From Gaertneriomyces semiglobifer (Eukaryota > Chytridiomycota > Chytridiomycetes > Spizellomycetales > Spizellomycetaceae), in the NCBI GenBank assembly GCA_025558075.1, contig JAHLKF010000013.1, positions 310,001-374,000 on the forward strand: a stretch of 64,000 bases of DNA, in the 5' to 3' direction. The translations under genes were made by a program, and so were the position numbers. Numbering within the stretch: position 1 is the stretch's first letter; each line of letters starts with the position of its first letter. This document shows positions 43,926 to 54,234 of the stretch, piece by piece. The notes beneath the pieces were generated by a model, which saw nothing but the letters and a program-made list of their open reading frames with translations, ran no database searches and was not told the origin of the DNA.

Positions 43926-45981
43926 CTACCTTTTCCTGCTTATGTGACGAGCAGGAGGACTCGTTCTTGCCTTTGGTAGTGATTGCAAGTGAGCTCCCAC
44001 TTGGATAAGAGGATCCTCTTCATCTTCAACAATATCTTCACCATCGGAGCCGAGCTCAGAGTCCTCCTTGTGCGTTTCTTCCTCACTCATATCTACAGCC
44101 ACGTCCTCGTCTTTAGCGAGCACACGTCCACCCTGTTCGCGGTCCGCCCGCAAGTACGCCTCTGTTCGTCTCTCAATCTCTGCACGCACCACCGGCGGAT
44201 CTCTATACCGAGGGTCCTCGTGCACAACTGGGTAATTATAGTCCCCGAACGGCAGCCTCCTCGCATCATCGTACGCTGCTTCGGAGTCAGGATCTATCCT
44301 GAACTCTATGCTAATGACAGATTGCGCGTCCTGGTTCTCAAACGGGCTAGAGTCAAAGTCAGTTGATTCATCCGCCCAAATGTCATGGCTCTCTTCATGT
44401 CGTTGAACTGAACCGTAACTGTTGAAAATGCCATAACGGTTGAGCGGTCGAGTAGTCTCAACGTGGAATTGGCTGACGCCCGCCGGCCATCCACCCCGAG
44501 ACGATCGAAATGTGGTACCGTGAAACGTGTGATAAGAATCTTGAATGATGTCTTGGATACCCAATGCGTCGCGGGCAGCTGCGGGAAATAGTAGCCGTGA
44601 TGATAACCTGGAAAGCCCGTCAGGAAGCACTATGAAAATTGATGCCAGGCTTTGCCGTACCGTTTGTCATCGTAATCTGTCCAAGGAAATGCGTACCAGT
44701 GTAGCATAGCAAGAAACGGCATTTCCAAGCATATGAGGAAATCTTGAACCGCCAGTGCTTGGTCTGCCGCCGAGTAATCGTCCTCTGGTAATGGTGCACC
44801 GTTAGTCAGGAAGCGCACACAATGACAAACTAAGTGATCTAACACTTGCTTTCTTGTATGGCACCAATCCTCGTCAAAAAGGCGATGCCCAACCCCTGGT
44901 ACCAGGTCAGAAATACGATTGCCTTCACACAAATGAACTTCGGAACTGGCCTTCAACAACACAAAAATCATCGGCTTGTGAATGGAAATATGCCCTGATG
45001 ATTGAGCGTACCTGTATGGCTTCAGGTCCCTTGAGCATTGGACGTAAAACAGAACCAGACAATAAAGCGACCAGCAGACAGAGCAGTTGTAGAGAAGAGA
45101 AAGCCACATATATGTGCTGGTCCAGCTGATGTGGCCTTCGTGGTAGTTATCAGTGAGCTTGAGTATCATGGTAAAGATACTGAGGACGGGTTTCAAGACG
45201 ACAAATTGCAGAACACCACGTCGCACAAAGAGAAACGTGTCGGGGTCGCTCATCTGCCTTGTTACGATGTTAGTCTCGGCAAACGAGATCATAAGCGAAA
45301 GCCGATCGTGAAAACATACGTCCATTGGGGCGAAACAGTAGTTGAAGGGCCACAAATGGTGTGTACGCATTCGTTCGTCCAGCATTGCCAGAAGCGCCCG
45401 TTCCCCACCTAGGTAATCGATGCACCTAACGATACAGTCAACACACGAACGCATAGGACTACAATCAGCATAACTCACAGCAGGAAAAACGAGTATATCA
45501 CGAACGCCTAGTCGTAGCGGGGTAAGTGGAAGTGCGCTGTCACCCAAATCACGTCGCAGGAACACACCTCATATATGTCGCGAATGAGGTCAATATACTC
45601 CGACGCCGTTTTGGATGATAAACTTGTCAATGATGCTATTGCATATATGGGGACCCTTTTGGAGCGATCATTAAGATGCTGAACCGCCCGAACATGGTCG
45701 GGCCTGATGCCGTGTGATCGGAAGATGTCCAAAGACTCACATTAACAATATTCGAATCGTCAACCTCTATAAGCCGGTATAATGAGCTTTTTGCAAAGAG
45801 TTGTCCATCAGGAACAAGCTGTACCCACCTGCACGCTCGGTCGTCGGTAGTTTTTTAGATGCTCAAAGATGGTCCAAAAGGAAATCCCACATCCGGCCAA
45901 CGTGCCAATCACCGCAAAAAAGAAGGCCACACTACCAACTTTGTCACTGGCATCGGTCATAGTTTCATGTAGATCCTGCAT
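43926..45981 (-). CDS. TMEM184: TMEM184/OST-alpha-like seven-transmembrane protein
   Basis: Eight exons on the minus strand, 45981-45829, 45678-45568, 45507-45479, 45425-45320, 45253-45012, 44950-44850, 44784-44661 and 44607-43926, give 515 residues. Family blocks appear in order: IFEHLKNYRRP, VPIYAIASLTSL, IRDIYEAFVIYSFFLL, CIDYLGGERALLAML, DTFLFVRRGVLQFVVLKPVL, LKPYRPVPKFICVKAIVFLT, AVQDFLICLEMPFLAMLHWY and AARDALGIQDIIQDS. About seven membrane helices are followed by an acidic cytoplasmic tail. The third exon is only 29 nt. The sixth intron appears to use a GC donor (A|GCAAGT). The acceptor of the first intron is the least certain junction. The family is found in fungal vacuole or Golgi membranes and in animals; its transport role is poorly known. 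Confidence 0.88.
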
Positions 45982-46238: not shown

Positions 46239-47462
46239 ATGACTATATACCGATCACTGGCTTGCAGTAGGATTTGTTCACGACAATACCAGTCACTTAT
46301 ACTCAGATCCGCCTGCCCACGTTTTCCTCTGTTGACGCCTTTGCGCAAATCTTTGTTAGCTCAAACCTCTCCATCTAGTATCCAGCTTTTCCAACAAGAC
46401 CGTCGCATATCGACCATGCCAGAAACAACGGAAGGTGTGTCACTGGCGCTCGAAGGCTACTAGCGTCTGGCCATTAACAGCCGTGCAGAGGTGCAGAAGC
46501 AGATGGGAAAGGCTCGAAAACATACGGGTGCACCTTTGAGCAATCTTGTCGGTGACCAAGGTGATGGTGAAGAAGGTCTGTTGCTAAATGGCTCATTCAA
46601 GCACTTCAATTTTTTGTACTGATCTGTATCCTCGATCGCAAAGGCCTCGGGGTGGGAATCGCTCTCCTACTGGTCGATGTAATAAACGACATTGACTTTG
46701 AAGGAAATGAGTACATGGTTGCCGAGGCGAAGAAAATGGCGCCAAAGATCAGAGATCTCACTAACCGGTGTCGGGAGCTCAACGTACCAGTCATATATTG
46801 CAACGACAACTTTGGAAAGTGGAGATCGAACCTGGAGCAGATTTACGAGAAGGTTACTAGTTCTGACGACGTGCCGGGAAAGCCAGTTGTTGAAATGCTG
46901 AAACCACAAAAGGTACGCTAGCGCTTCCCTCTGAATTTCCTCGCCATTTGCTAACGCGCGCTGATGAGGCAGGATGATTACTTCGTTTTGAAACCAAAGC
47001 ACTCTGCGTTCTATGCAACGGCCCTAGATTCCCTCTTGACATACTTACAGGTAAATGTCACTGATCATAGAATGAATTTCATTGTGTACGCTGACTCGAC
47101 CATGTTAGGTCAAGTCATTGATTATGGTGGGGATGGCGGGCAATGTTTGCATCCTCTTTACAGCAAACGATGCCTACATGCGCGACTTTGCAACATTTGT
47201 TCCCCGGGATTGCATCGCAAGCTCATCGCCGGAAGAGCACTCGGCCGCATTGCTGTTGATGGAGAGGGTGTTGAGAACCAGTACATTGTCATCAGACGAA
47301 CTGGATCTCTGCGAGCTTGTCGAGGCACACAAACAGAGAGGTTTAGGTGCGCCGAAATCAGATGCTTGTGAAAAGAAGGGTGACCAGAGCGAAGGAGGTC
47401 CTATGCACAAAACATCGGATGGCATGTCAGGCAATACCACCAAAGACGGCTTCAAACTTTGA
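46239..47462 (+). CDS. Isochorismatase-like cysteine hydrolase with probable mitochondrial presequence
   Basis: Five exons, 46239-46434, 46489-46575, 46644-46912, 46973-47050 and 47109-47462, encode 327 residues in consistent phases. The catalytic core starts GIALLLVDVINDIDFEGNEY (catalytic Asp), continues VPVIYCNDNFGKWRSNLEQI and DDYFVLKPKHSAFYAT (catalytic Lys region), and ends VGMAGNVCILFTANDAYMRD with the nucleophilic Cys. It is most like bacterial cysteine hydrolases of the isochorismatase superfamily, whose substrates vary (amides, nicotinamide, unknown). The first 60 residues are rich in Arg, Ser and Leu with no acidic residue until late, as in a mitochondrial presequence. A shorter start at ATG 46415 would drop it. 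The ~45-residue C-terminal tail is a hydrophilic extension. Confidence 0.87.
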
Positions 47463-47754: not shown

Positions 47755-48986
47755 ATGACCAGTATTAATTACGCACCACTATCGCCCCTGCTTGAACAGT
47801 TTGTGGAGAGGGAACTGGGACCCAGGACTCGGGCAGCTAAAGAGCAAGCATCCGGCATCCTTCGTAGGATTAAAGCCGTCGCTAATGAAGCACTTGGCTG
47901 TACGGCTGATGTCGACCTCCGCGGATCTTTTGCGAAAGGCACAAATGGACCGCATAGCGACTTGGATATGGTGGTCAAAGCTCCCATGGAAGTTACCAGG
48001 AGCCTTCGCGCCGCGTTTGCCGCCGGGTTTGAAGAGAAGTATGGTGTTCCGATTCAAATCTCCACAAAGTAGGACTTCGATTGCGCACGATGTGACCTTG
48101 TCATTGACGCTTATATCTTTAAATCGCTAGTGCTGTTACGATCCAATTCGACAATGGGATGGAGGTGGATGTCACTTTCGAAAGAACCACCTATGGTGCC
48201 GGTATCATTCCCTACAAGCCTAGTACATATAAGGTTTTTCAAGATGTTGCGCCTTTCAGAATTGCCGTTCAAGCAATAAAGCTCTTGGGGGAGTACCGGA
48301 ATTTGCCGAACATTAAAGGGCGCTTCTGGGAACAGCTAGTTTTGCATGCTGGAAGCCGCGGTCAGTCTTCGCTGCGTATTTTTGTTGCAGCGCTGACAAC
48401 CCTCGCAGAGGAACGCTCATGTTCTGAGCTGATCCATAAACTTGAGAGGTCGAACTACTCAGAGGGAGCGCTCGGCCTAGCAATGAGCGAAGGAGCGAAA
48501 CGGAGCTGGGCAGATGCTGGTAGGCGCTTGGTGAAGGCACTGGAGAGATCAGAAATTGCATCGGCGTCCGACTTCAAGAGGGTGTTTGAGGATCCTGTAG
48601 CCCTTCCGTATAAAGCGGTTACCCCCTCCTCCGTTGCCGGAGAACGCAAAGTACATCAATGTCAGACATGCAAGAAGGGCAAATATTCTAGCGTAGAGGC
48701 TTTGCGGCAGCATCATTCAGATTCCCATCGTGCGAACTCGGGGTTGTCTGGTGCGCCTCTTCGGGTACCGACACCGCCCAAGCCAGCTTCTGAGTGTTGC
48801 AACATCTGCCCATTCTGCCCAAGACAGTTTCGAAATAAGCAGGCGCAGCAACAGCACATTGCTGCGAGCCATCCACGATACCTTGGTTGCGGATCTTGCA
48901 ACAGGCTGTTCAAGAGTGCTGATGCGCTCCTGGATCATCGAAGGGACAGGCACATTAAAGCCGCTGGTCCGCTTGCGGTGCTCTGA
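47755..48986 (+). CDS. OAS-like nucleotidyltransferase fused to three C2H2 zinc fingers
   Basis: Two exons, 47755-48068 and 48131-48986, give 389 residues; the 62-nt intron is phase 2. The N-terminal half is a polymerase-beta-type nucleotidyltransferase. The GS motif with two catalytic aspartates reads LRGSFAKGTNGPHSDLDMVV (G57-S58, D69, D71) and the third aspartate is D118 in NGMEVDVTF. This order and spacing resemble 2'-5'-oligoadenylate synthetase (GS...GKGT...SD.D..V) and its helical partner domain: a Lys/Arg-bearing helix (FRIAVQAIKLLGEYRN), then LPNIKGRFWEQLVLHAG. The C-terminal 110 residues carry three C2H2 fingers (C282/C285, C331/C334 and C358/C361 with paired His). OAS and cGAS relatives make oligonucleotide second messengers when they bind nucleic acid. 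A TUTase-like RNA-tailing enzyme is the main alternative. All three metal-binding residues are present, so it is likely active. Confidence 0.85.
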
Positions 48987-49898
48987 GGCTCTGTCATGGA
49001 GTGAGTTGTCACCGACGGTCGGGCGAACGTCAGGCGAACAGATGGAAGCAAATGGGGACTAAAGTCCGTTTTTCACATTGTAAACATGTCCTGCTGTTAT
49101 GAATATATGGTGGATTTGCTTGCTGCTACAATCTTCTAGTCTGTGCACGCGGGGAAAGTGGTTGAAAACTGTTAAGCATTCTTATCAGCAAGTGCGACCA
49201 GTAAGCGGTTGCCTGTGATGGCTTTCGCTTCAGCGGAACGTATCAAGAGTACTAATGTTTCAAGCCCCTTCCCGAACGAAAGTAAAGCGTGAAAGATTGG
49301 GAAGTTGATCAATAAATCATCAGCCGGCGGCAAATTGATGAGAAAGTTCAATATCCAAAGATCTGCATGTGCTCACTCCAATATGCATGGCATCACGTCT
49401 CATAACTGCAAGCCTAGGAGGGACATTCACACATGTGGGAGGCCGTAACTGGGTGATTATCTTGCAATCGAAGCTAATCAATGAACCCTCTCAGCAAAGT
49501 ACCGCCGTGTTGGAACACCGACGGGGCATAGACTGTTGTCCATCAAGCACCACGGAGGAAGGTGAGTCTGCGGCGTGCCTCTTATGCACTTGTCATACTC
49601 CTGAAGTGAGGACTTTTGGGACGGAACTGTTGCGTGAGAAAATTCCCACGCGTATGTGCGAAATAAAACTCGCATGGCCCCAACGGTTTATATAATATAA
49701 TAGTTCATTGGAGGAGAGTCGCCTAAAAAAAAAAAAAAAAAAAAAAAGGCGCCCTGATGGAGGTCTTAACGAGGGCCATGGAACCGATAGCGGACCAAGA
49801 GTGGTCACTCTGCCTCAACTATGCGCAAGCTTCAAGGGTAAAAGAATATATACTTGATGATACAGTTCCAGTACAGGAAAAAAGCACTACAGATTCAG
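48987..49898. other. Convergent intergenic region with a poly-A tract
   Basis: About 900 bp between the nucleotidyltransferase and the convergent membrane-protein gene. A plus-strand frame at 49369-49695 shows no domain. An A tract of about 24 bases at 49724-49747 is flanked by gtcgcct and aggcgcc, a short inverted match. It may mark a retroposed sequence or be a simple terminator-like hairpin in 3' UTR DNA. No gene is called. Confidence 0.4.
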
Positions 49899-51617
49899 TC
49901 AGGAAACACTGCGGTCCGGGAGGCTACATAGAATTGCCCTATTCTGCAGTTTTGCCAAACCCGACTGCAACACTTTCTCATTTGCCCTATTCCTCATTGA
50001 AGCTTTCCGTCCCGGTCCAAGCTGTGCTCGCCAGCATTTGCGTAGCCCAAACTCCAAGTCATGGGAATACAGCGGTAACCCGGCTATCGCGAACATGAAG
50101 ACGAAGTTCAACAATGCCAGCGACAGAACTTCGCTCTTCATACACAGTGGGATGTTCACGCCACAATATAAAATAGAAAATATGAAAGTGAATGTCACTG
50201 AATTAAGCGTTGTGATGAGTGGTGATGTCAGCGTCACAGCTGTAAGGAACATGTAATGCATCGGCCATCCGCTGGATAGAGAGTCTGGCGTAAACGTGAA
50301 GTAAAGGAAGCGCATGTGAAACACCGTGATAGCAAGGGCGTAGATCGACACTATCCACTGGAGCAAGTTGGGCCGATGGCGACTGAAATAGGTTGCAGCC
50401 GCGGAAACCAAGGACACAATTGTCACGTATATCATCTGCACGATGTGGTACATTAAGACAAGAGCAAGCACCACATATTGAACGACTACCTGCTTACCAC
50501 TGTGACCATATTCATCTTACTATTCGCATCTCCAGTTGACGGAACGGTGCCGGATAAATGCCAAAGTGTACCCGTAAAATCCGTAGCGACCATATTCATC
50601 AGAAGGTCCACAAGGAACGAAGCAAAGTATTTCTTGGTGCGATAACGTTGAAACTCCTTCTCAATGGCATTTCCCATGAACTTCGGCATAACGTGACCCA
50701 TCACACCTTTTCGTAGCTCGTATTCCTCCACTTTGCTGGCCGCAGGCGCGGTACTCAAATCAATACTGCTTGCTACTGCTTCTGTGGTCTCTGCGCTTTC
50801 CAGAAGCCGTTCGCGCCACATCCGTCGCAGTACGCGTTCTCGCTCTTGCGCCATCTGCCTGCCGTAGCCGACCATTGCCAACGTTGAGATCACGGATGCT
50901 GCATACGACAGGCTAATTGCGTGGGCAGGAGCCAACGACAGAAACATGATGGTGTGAATGGTCAAGCATACGAGCGACGTATAAAATATGTACTGCATTG
51001 GCAGTGGGAACGTCGCTGCAGCGCAGGCCACCGAGAGAATGGTAATGGGCACATTTGGAAGAGTGACCACTACCGTTCGGGCATCGTACTTGATGCCATC
51101 CCAGAATCCAAATTCTCGCGAATAAAGCAGGTATGTGGAGGGTATGAAAATGACGGAGTATGATAGCCAAAATATCAGCACAAAATGTAGCCCATATCGG
51201 ATGAACCTTTTCCATTTCGCAACGGAATAGCATGCTGCGACGGCAAGCGAACTTTACGCAAGAGAGTTAACTTTCACCTGCGAATCATGCAAATACTGTC
51301 ACATACCTAATTGCTCCGAGTCCAGAGACGCACGTTCGCACCAACGTTCCTGGGGTACCCCATCCCAAACTGATCGCGGTGAGGGAATCGGTGACAACAA
51401 GCAAAAGGAAGAAGCCCGCTAGCAGGACCATGGAAAATGCAGTATGGCGTCGCATGTGATGGATATATGCTTGCTGAAAGGACTTTTCGTCCGCTGGGGA
51501 TGGGAACCGGAGCGACTGGCGGACATATTGGCGGACGAAGCCCCTCCGTAACCGCTCAACCCAATCATGGCTCCAAACTCCTTTTCTTCCGGAATCAGAT
51601 TCGACCCCGCTGGACAT
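49899..51617 (-). CDS. Multi-pass membrane protein with two similar halves, unknown function
   Basis: Three coding blocks on the minus strand, 51617-51307, 51251-50521 and 50485-49899, give 542 residues. The first intron (56 nt) fits in phase. The second junction needs either a 35-nt intron (A|GTAAGA...GGTAG), shorter than any other here, or a frameshift. Each half begins with a basic amphipathic segment followed by membrane helices: EKSFQQAYIHHMRRHTAFSM in the first and EKEFQRYRTKKYFASFLVDL in the second. About twelve hydrophobic segments are seen in total (for example VLLAGFFLLLVVTDSL, VLALVLMYHIVQMIYVTIVS). A ~60-residue basic tail follows. The layout is reminiscent of six-helix membrane modules that precede class III cyclase domains in zoosporic organisms, but no catalytic domain is present. 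Confidence 0.55.
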
Positions 51618-51774: not shown

Positions 51775-52482
51775 TTATTTGTCCGCCTTATGTCTCATTA
51801 TAGCCTCAAAGTCGCGATAGCCCATTCTGCCATCTGAATCCGCGTCAAGTTTATCAAAAGCATTCACAAAGGCCGACCGTCGTACAGATGGAGCTATTTT
51901 TTGAAATACTCGAATGATGTCCTTTAGAGTAATGAATCCTTTACCTGCAGAGTAGCAGCAGTTGGCGTTACTAACATACACAGTGGAGATTGGTGGTAGT
52001 AACACAGGACACCCACATTCAGTATCGATCGCCAGGAACGTGCGCCGAATCTCATCGTCCAAGTCCTGTATCGCGCGATTTGACGATAAAAGCTTCAAGA
52101 AGACCTCTAATGTCAGCTCTGTAGCCAAATTAGACCGGCCCGATTCTTTCGTAATCAGTCTATCACCAGGGTTGCACCTTTCTTGTCAAAATCAATAGTT
52201 CTGGCAGTACGCTCAAGTTCAAACTGTTAAACCAAAGGCGAACTATCCGTCAGCCTTGAATTTTCCATTCATCGCATTGACTGAGGTCACCTTGGTGGGC
52301 TTGTATCCCAACACAGCGACTAAGGCCACTTTGTAGTCGTCGCGTGTCAAGAATCCTTTGCAATCTGAATCCGCTCTATGGAAGACCTCTGTCAGCCAGG
52401 CCTTGGTGTCATTAGCAACTCCATCTTGCTCTATTGAGCGCCTGCTCGTGTATGGAAGCAAAAGGTGTGGTACGGTAGCCAT
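51775..52482 (-). CDS. EFCAB11: EFCAB11-like EF-hand protein
   Basis: Four exons on the minus strand, 52482-52291, 52223-52178, 52118-52017 and 51944-51775, give 169 residues with consistent phases, the same size as animal EFCAB11. The first EF-hand region reads VFHRADSDCKGFLTRDDYKV followed by the family signature GYKPTK. The second half has a degenerate hand (IDTECKGFITLKDI) and a canonical one, FDKLDADSDGRMGYRDFEAI, with Asp at positions 1, 3 and 5 of the loop. It probably binds one or two calcium ions. Function is unknown, and presence in flagellated lineages fits this organism. The promoter lies in the ~290 bp shared with the upstream kinase gene's 3' end. Confidence 0.85.
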
Positions 52483-52775
52483 GATGAATGTGGTTTGTCA
52501 AGACATGCTCAGAACGATATCAACATGGTTTTGCAAGCCGGAGGTTGAAGTAAGATAACCTTGTGAAAGGAAGAACGCGAACGCACCAACGCATTGGCCA
52601 TAGCCGATACCGCGGAGCTGTAGGACACATAGGAGGGAACCTTGTGCAATGGGTAATAGAATCACCATGATACCCTTTGGGAGCAAACATTCGAAGCGTT
52701 TCAAACGAACGAGTATTAATTAATGATTACTACCGGGTATATAAGTACGAAAGCAATCACTGCGGCATCAGCACC

Positions 52776-54234
52776 TCAACCTGATGCATACGTCAAGTTC
52801 TCCACCTGATTTCCCACTCGGAGTACAACATAAACATCAGTGCCGAACTCCTCCATACTGACGGCCTCCACATCTCCACCCCAGTAATTCGCGTACACCT
52901 TGCTCATTGGCAGCCCCAATCCCAAGCGCATGCCCATGGGTCGCATCCTGTGCTCCAGCTCGCTCTCCTCAATCTTGGCTGCTAAACGAGGAACGTGTAC
53001 AAAGTTGAGGAATTTTCGCTTGGAAGGGTGCGAGTATGACCATATATGTTGGAGAATGGAAGATGGGATGCCACCTCCCCTATCGGAAATACGGAAAGTC
53101 AACAGGTTTGGCGCTGAGGCTATTGTCGCACGGATGGGCGGCAGACTGGATGTTACATAGTTGGACGTCGCTTCTGAGTCACCGGAACTAGCGGGTGCAT
53201 CTGCGTCCGATGGTACCATGTGGTCATCCGGCAACTGCGCTGATTTCAAAACGGAACTGACATCCCATGCTTCTCCGAATCGCCTTTGTGGTGGTGTCTC
53301 GGCTAGGGTAATACCTTCGGCTGGCTGCGGTGTCTTGTCCAGTTTTGTTTGTCCGTGTTTCTCAACCGTGGCCCACATGCTGTTCTTCAGCAGCTCAAAG
53401 ATGATGTATTCTATTTGGTCGGGAATATACGTGAAGGTCGCTTCGGTATGTCCGTCAATTATGACTTCCGGTACTTGTACACCAAATGCTTCATGCATGA
53501 CTTCAGATGCCAATCCGATACACTTCTTGACGACATCCAGCGCTCGACATCGAGTGTTGACTATACCAATATATCCATCCTCCTGGTGCTCCCGTCCATC
53601 AAAGACTGCGCTCAACATGATGTGTTGTTCCGCCAGGACTCGTCTCCCTATTCGTGACCGCAACATGTCATTCATGAATCTGTCAGCTTCTTTCGGTGCG
53701 ACGTGCATGGCAGCTTCTGTGATCCCCATGGCTAGACGCGGGATAGCGACGAGATGAGCATCTAACATGTGCTCCACCGTATCACAGAATTCACGGTTTT
53801 CCTCAAGGTTTGTAATGGGGGGAATGCTTCGGAATAACTCAAAGGCTTCCCAGTATAGTTGATATATGTGCTCTATGTGAGGATTGGTACCCACGATGAA
53901 CGGCAGGTGTTGAAAATCGCTAGACTCAAGATGGTCAGTTGCGCCTGTGAAGCCTGCACGAATATTGCACTCACAAGATCCGGTGGGCCAGCCTGACTGG
54001 TAGTTCTGCTCTAACATAATTTGCACTTTTGATGAGCTTGTCCTCTGTTAACGTTCGTCCAAATACAGTGAGCTGTCGTAGGGTCACCCGTTTCGTTTCT
54101 TGCGCAGCATACTGTTCAAGGACACGATTCTGGTAGAAGGATGGCTTGCCGTTATAGGCTCGTACTTGACAATGCGATTGCAAGCACTGCCGGCATATAC
54201 TTCGTAGACGTAGTCGGCGCGTTATGACGGTCAT
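52776..54234 (-). CDS. Mitochondrial protein kinase of the BCKDK/PDK family
   Basis: Two exons on the minus strand, 54234-53975 and 53919-52776, encode 467 residues. The N-terminus is a basic presequence (MTVITRRLRLRSICRQC). The helical regulatory domain follows, with LIKSANYVRAELPVRLAHRI and LPFIVGTNPHIEHIYQLY. The GHKL ATPase domain has N box FELLKNSMWATVE, G1 box FRISDRGGGIP and the tail GLGLPMSKVYANYWGGDVEA. These match the atypical mitochondrial kinases that phosphorylate branched-chain ketoacid or pyruvate dehydrogenase E1. Between N and G1 boxes there is a Ser/Pro/Asp-rich insertion of roughly 90 residues, longer than in relatives. The N-terminal match favours the branched-chain kinase, but the substrate cannot be settled by eye. 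Confidence 0.9.

Follow-up and report, generated by a model that had tools for sequence, protein, structure and literature searches.

A chytrid gene for a predicted nucleotidyltransferase with three C2H2 zinc fingers and a core that leans toward CD-NTases

Within a 64,000-nucleotide window (the whole stretch of DNA analyzed, from contig JAHLKF010000013.1) of the 20.9-Mb genome of Gaertneriomyces semiglobifer, a soil chytrid of the Spizellomycetales according to the public record, we found a two-exon gene whose 389-residue product is predicted to be a nucleotidyltransferase with intact catalytic motifs, followed by a middle domain of ~135 residues and three C2H2 zinc fingers. Judged from its sequence, the catalytic core leans tentatively toward the CD-NTases rather than toward TUTases or poly(A) polymerases (PAPs). 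Our leading explanation, to which we assign a probability of about 0.38, is a CD-NTase-like oligonucleotide synthase regulated by its fingers. The fingers would bind RNA or DNA, binding would switch on or place the enzyme, and the enzyme would join nucleoside triphosphates into a short oligonucleotide without a primer. Activation by nucleic acid, the product, and any antiviral role are conjectural. A more specific proposal, which we regard as rather unlikely, is that the protein is a fungal, perhaps genus-level, sensor of foreign nucleic acid that uses its C2H2 fingers and makes an oligonucleotide second messenger; it would then be a fungal counterpart of OAS, cGAS, and CBASS with a sensor of independent origin, acting through a new receptor.

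With a chytrid enzyme of this kind, leaning toward CD-NTases, predicted to be catalytically intact, and joined to what is probably a nucleic-acid-binding module, a single purified protein would suffice to put nucleotide second-messenger immunity in fungi to a direct test. If true, the CD-NTase assignment would matter because enzymes of the cGLR type are reportedly missing from fungi: one study describes fungal STING fused to a phosphorylase (PNP-STING), yet no detectable cGLR genes (PMC12424679). A survey that used OAS1_C as its marker places OAS-like proteins in 8 of the 12 eukaryotic supergroups and reports that many well-assembled genomes of plants, fungi, and amoebozoans lack eukaryotic CD-NTases, STING, and viperin (PMC10732462). 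If the protein were an RNA-tailing enzyme, its domain arrangement would still be unusual for that group. In the open-licence literature, we found no paper on an OAS or CD-NTase of fungi that carries zinc fingers and no description of the arrangement seen here.

The gene, its palm, and its fingers

The spliced protein is identical to the NCBI hypothetical protein BC832DRAFT_621919 of G. semiglobifer, and both the organism and the splicing are thus backed by the public record. The gene is real and unstudied, carries only the annotation 'hypothetical', and has no second copy that we could find in the genome. A first-pass annotation of this DNA had given the same overall span; the gene stands, but the span is not one continuous frame, since it holds an intron with an in-frame TAG. 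The same annotation was right to expect a zoosporic fungus as the host, to name three C2H2 fingers, and to pick out a GS motif, SDLDMVV, and MEVDV, all of which lie in one spliced frame.

The Pfam NTP_transf_2 model matched the palm with 27.4 bits (cut-off 21; E 4.4e-6 with residues 1-260 as query), and the palm carries the features of the Pol-beta-like nucleotidyltransferase superfamily (G57-S58, D69, D71, and D118). In the palm model, block pLDDT (predicted local distance difference test) values were 71-84 over residues 31-50 and 71-120 and 47-58 over residues 51-70. Exon 1 of a relative in Gaertneriomyces sp. JEL0708 is identical at 83 of 104 residues (79.8%) and differs at the other 21, with GS, KGT, D69, and D71 kept.

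The zinc ligands of the fingers are C282/C285/H299/H304, C331/C334/H347/H352, and C358/C361/H374/H379. Spacing is canonical in fingers 2 and 3, with H-x4-H, and finger 1 has one residue more. The zf-C2H2_4 model scored 34.9 bits (cut-off 27; E 1.7e-8), placing the product among C2H2 proteins. A double-stranded-RNA-type model, zf-C2H2_jaz, scored 27.4 bits (cut-off 22.6), a label that by itself is no demonstration of RNA binding.

Table 1. Features of the gene, in window coordinates (AF2, AlphaFold2; all on the plus strand)
Feature	Position	Strand	Residues	Basis or remark
Exon 1	47755..48068	+	1-104 and two bases of codon 105	N-terminal helices and most of palm; GT-AG splice prediction, matched by public protein
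Intron, 62-bp GT-AG	48069..48130	+		In-frame TAG at start
Exon 2	48131..48986	+		Palm end with third Asp, middle domain, three fingers, stop codon
GSFAKGT motif	47923..47943	+	57-63	Direct reading; inside NTP_transf_2 match 38-105
SDLD, presumed catalytic D69 and D71	47956..47967	+	68-71	Direct reading; both Asp kept in JEL0708
MEVDV, D118 presumed third catalytic acid	48159..48173	+	115-119	Direct reading; aligns with third acid of bacterial CD-NTases
Middle domain, eight predicted helices	48189..48590	+	125-258	AF2 secondary structure, pLDDT <50
C2H2 finger 1, C-x2-C-x13-H-x4-H	48660..48728	+	282-304	Pattern; block pLDDT 81-83 over 281-300
C2H2 finger 2, C-x2-C-x12-H-x4-H	48807..48872	+	331-352	Best stretch for zf-C2H2_4 and zf-C2H2_jaz, both above cut-off; block pLDDT 55-69
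C2H2 finger 3, C-x2-C-x12-H-x4-H	48888..48953	+	358-379	Pattern; block pLDDT 77-83

Placement of the core among nucleotidyltransferases

The following comparisons lean toward the CD-NTases. First, we compared the core with calibrated profiles built from four to five sequences each for PAPs, TUTases, OAS, CD-NTases, and minimal nucleotidyltransferases (MNTs), with controls left out of their own profiles. The CD-NTase profile scored 87.1% (residues 26-182), compared with 33.9% for TUTases, 19.7% for PAPs, and 2.9% for OAS, and residues 1-125 alone gave a similar order. The CD-NTase profile was ranked first by all seven bacterial sequences taken as CD-NTases, although two of these, L093 and L095, were weak matches (E 0.09 and 0.4) in the CdnC search that retrieved them and L093 also scored 72.3% with the TUTase profile. 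Four of four TUTases and both PAPs put their own class first and gave the CD-NTase profile at most 3.5%, and the three OAS domains put OAS first and CD-NTases second (91.9-98.0%). Second, when the protein was combined with the JEL0708 exon, three CD-NTase sets scored 92.0% (z 13.2, 40 shuffles), 80.6%, and 55.1%, against 25.1 for PAP, 23.3 for TUTase, and 16.4 for OAS; the JEL0708 exon by itself gave MNT 95.1, CD-NTase 53.6, OAS 28.0, PAP 21.3, and TUTase 8.5. Larger but uneven sets gave 72.9-92.7% for CD-NTases, 95.7% for MNTs, 63.2% for a second viral nucleotidyltransferase group, 16.4% for OAS, 10.4% for Trf4, 2.3% for PAP, and 0.6% for the Cid1-like frame of the same genome, and our conclusions are based on the more even sets. 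Third, curated models agree weakly in direction. CBASS_cyclase_b matched at 5.1e-5, ahead of an archaeal CCA enzyme (0.0021) and MntA (0.017), and did not match the PAP or Trf4 of this genome; the PADLOC Cyclase model PDLC00803 matched at 1e-4, with human OAS1 reaching 8.4e-10 against a Cyclase model, the chytrid Trf4 at best 1.5e-3 against any of them, and the chytrid PAP nothing. Finally, a hidden Markov model of 120 short CD-NTases (P0003-P0122) gave the protein 10.5 bits, compared with 5.6 for OAS1, 1.5 for the chytrid PAP, and 3.2 for the best of 200 shuffles. The Pfam SMODS model (PF18144) found no match in the protein, but this model is insensitive and gave the verified CdnC only 25.8 bits against a cut-off of 26.5; Mab-21 (PF03281), the marker of cGLRs, also found none.

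Several results weigh against a CD-NTase assignment. Most single CD-NTase sequences matched the core no better than PAP or Trf4 did, and two MNT-like viral frames scored 13.2 and 10.3 bits with the model of short CD-NTases. The middle domain alone matched CD-NTase profiles at chance. Residues 120-262 did not clearly resemble sequences of OAS, CD-NTases, or TUTases, among which CdnC came out best (score reached by 23 of 500 shuffles), and matched the chytrid PAP better (11 of 500). Within this region, the helix FRIAVQAIKLL resembles FRIALRCIKLW of that PAP (11 of 500 shuffles; z 4.9 over 40 shuffles). KGRFWEQLV, lined up by eye with the SFxxEL helix of CD-NTases, seemed a good match but failed the shuffling tests, and the alignment was dropped. 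In fold searches with the palm model, yeast PAP and Trf4 led the Foldseek matches and Cid1, CutA, MEAT1, and TUT7 led the VIA matches. Lastly, the MNT profile outscored that of the CD-NTases for the core, with 95.6% over residues 47-116.

The MNT score, together with a match to PADLOC PDC-S09 (2.3e-5), whose family includes a Rhodococcus plasmid MNT (3e-21), would fit an MNT-like palm that has a lineage-specific helical part and, instead of producing a second messenger, modifies a protein, a tRNA, or a small molecule, with the fingers choosing the target. We consider this unlikely. An MNT is a single-domain palm of ~100-120 residues; those in our comparison are ~115 residues long without a second domain and lack the helical domain and fingers found in this 389-residue protein; MntA-type enzymes also work with a HEPN partner. 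We gave the MNT profile less weight because it is short and unspecific (92.2% for the TUTase URT1) and because the search pattern that retrieved three of its four members had been derived from the motif of the chytrid protein itself. The single MNT control put MNT first, followed by TUTase (85.5%) and CD-NTase (59.0%), and two viral frames of no assigned class also put MNT first.

The PAP-like helix and the palm fold argue for a close rival, which we rate only slightly below the leading explanation, namely that the protein is a diverged terminal RNA nucleotidyltransferase, TUTase-like or PAP-like, brought to RNA by its fingers, much as the fingers of some TUTases are thought to do. TUTases and PAPs matched the palm model slightly better than CD-NTases, which followed closely, so the structure search proposed in the first-pass annotation, in which firm placement with PAPs or TUTases was to count against it, put those folds first for the palm without separating them far from CD-NTases. 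The models were too poor in the middle domain to place its fold. In one search, the matches spanned residues 18-130, and OAS was absent among the 50 matches listed, which excludes nothing. Yeast PAP was also the best sequence match to residues 1-136 in the PDB, at a non-significant E of 1.2. An AlphaFold2 model built with 41 aligned sequences had a worse palm, and its fold searches returned fingers and helical noise; it was not used for classification. Against RNA tailing stand the calibrated scores of TUTases and PAPs relative to CD-NTases and the domain models: PAP_central, PAP_assoc, and PAP_RNA-bind found no match in the protein, whereas the chytrid PAP matched PAP_central and PAP_RNA-bind over cut-off and the chytrid Trf4 came just below it with PAP_assoc (21 vs 22.6 bits). 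The Gly-rich motif of PAP and TUTase central domains was not seen either. The modeled palm of the chytrid protein has the fold seen in TUT4/7, TUT1, Cid1, Trf4, and PAP, and some terminal nucleotidyltransferases do carry fingers, with one article listing C2H2 and CCHC fingers in TUT4/7 and a putative finger in TENT1/TUT1 (PMC6232586).

The first-pass annotation had read the protein as OAS-like, with an OAS1-C-like helical domain behind the palm, and as a possible nucleic-acid-activated sensor with its zinc fingers as the binding part. The lean of the core toward CD-NTases fits this idea in outline, but OAS is not the closest family in the profile comparison, and the OAS1-C-like domain is not confirmed. 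OAS1_C (PF10421) found no match in the protein up to E 10 (CdnC itself, run as a yardstick, reached only E 0.035), and the helices of the middle domain, predicted at low confidence, have no clear family similarity. Membership in OAS is not supported, and we think it improbable that the protein is a genuine member of the OAS superfamily passed down from early eukaryotes. In its favor, human OAS1 aligned with residues 13-136 at z 7.1 (0 of 500 shuffles). Pig OAS1 reached z 2.8 and OAS2 domain 1 only z 0.6, and we rejected OAS as the nearest family because the case rested on one human sequence and other OAS domains did worse. A lead worth noting is the pre-palm helix, LLEQFVERELGPRT, which resembles the OAS helix LDKFIEDYLLPDT in the pattern L-x2-F-V/I-E-x2-L-x-P. 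Its scores with three OAS domains were reached by 37, 20, and 10 of 1000 shuffles (11, 2, and 8 of 1000 for the JEL0708 sequence), but OAS2 domain 1, the fourth, gave nothing, and bacterial L095 matched as well (9 of 1000). Because the OAS sequences are so closely related, these comparisons amount to few independent tests. The chytrid protein thus resembles OAS in palm motifs and in this helix and differs in its smaller middle domain; OAS proteins are not known to carry C2H2 fingers.

Two further groups bear comparison. ZFR combines C2H2-type fingers with a nucleotidyltransferase fold, in an order reverse to that of the chytrid protein. The NF90-NF45 complex was among the palm fold matches, but the DZF domain (PF07528) found no match in the protein, and NF90 and NF45, as described in PMC11646218, lack the catalytic aspartates that are present here. 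Bacterial CBASS CD-NTases of the short PDLC00803 type and the CdnC type share the GS-x-AKGT ... D-x-D palm, a third Asp after a beta strand, and a further domain behind it. They differ in being only ~20% identical and in having no fingers noted in the proteins used, and the chytrid gene is eukaryotic and outside a defence cluster. PAPs, TUTases, OAS, and CD-NTases are described in the same article as one structural clade with links visible only by structure comparison (PMC11646218), which may explain why sequence alone leaves the class unsettled.

Relatives and genomic setting

Relatives are few. Word-based searches of 5.8 billion proteins depend on shared 5-residue words and can therefore miss more distant relatives. 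With the full protein, two of 5821 candidates reached E<=0.001, the chytrid protein's own record and a protein from Gaertneriomyces sp. JEL0708, and the same two of 295 candidates reached E<=10 with residues 26-175. For exon 2, this search found no relative, JEL0708 included. The JEL0708 protein (P0002, HDU85_003297) comes from a gene model in which the upstream isochorismatase runs on into exon 1 and translation stops at the intron TAG. We rejected a genuine isochorismatase-nucleotidyltransferase fusion, as a gene-model error is likely from the resemblance of the joining part to the 5' flank here and from the stop at the intron TAG. The isochorismatase pieces are identical between the two fungi at 87 of 91, 26 of 29, and 79 of 79 residues (pieces overlap by three residues, with a few mismatches at piece ends), so the nucleotidyltransferase gene, judged by exon 1, changes faster than its neighbor. 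This faster change and the scarcity of relatives would fit a decaying or non-catalytic gene without a set function, but open frames, a spliceable intron, and intact catalytic residues and finger ligands make that explanation the least probable of those considered, and very improbable.

An alignment search gave 975 matches among 7996 candidates scored; of the 120 listed, those with organism names were bacterial, and the chytrid protein was absent from these 120. By tblastn, the core found nothing in phages and, in plasmids, only a Rhodococcus MNT (E 1). Back-translated patterns matched in viral and genome contigs, with none upheld by tblastn, and a strict GSFAKGT-SDLDM DNA pattern in genome contigs and two other patterns in viral contigs had 0 matches. 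A looser viral pattern returned 71 stretches, none CD-NTase-like by motif and length as judged without family models. Most of these stretches (L011-L081) belong to a common viral nucleotidyltransferase-like family, with GSYAYGT in 56 of 71 and, for 45 of the 56, frames of 320-382 residues. Among bacterial loci, L088, L089, L091, and L092, on Agrobacterium, Rhizobium, and Cupriavidus plasmids, have a CD-NTase-type gene with a DUF6602 gene directly after it, which may be a CBASS-like pair; L087 comes after a gene for an S-4TM effector and L095 after one for a SLATT-domain protein.

NTP_transf_2 matched six times in the genome, including the gene under study. Of the others, L004 looks like a canonical PAP, L005 and L007 like Trf4/5, and L008 like Cid1, with the labels of L007 and L008 being motif readings; L009 was given no label. 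Genome scans found no match for SMODS, for which a positive control was detected, or for STING, SAVED, prok_STING, Mab-21, and OAS1_C, for which none was. Ribonuc_2-5A gave a single match in the genome (L096), which follows a protein kinase domain as it does in IRE1, and no second, RNase L-like copy was seen.

No sign of a defence cluster was found in the flanks looked at. The isochorismatase-family gene lies directly upstream (about 46571-47462, plus strand) and is near-identical in the JEL0708 pieces compared. Frames of a protein with multiple membrane spans occupy 49902-51617 on the minus strand, without a Pfam match at E 0.01. Genes for an EF-hand protein and a mitochondrial branched-chain alpha-ketoacid dehydrogenase kinase-like protein are nearby, and an Ost-alpha-type organic solute transporter gene is on the other side (51778-54047 and 44633-45568, respectively, both on the minus strand). 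A run of 23 A at 49725-49747 lies between short CGCC/GGCG flanks.
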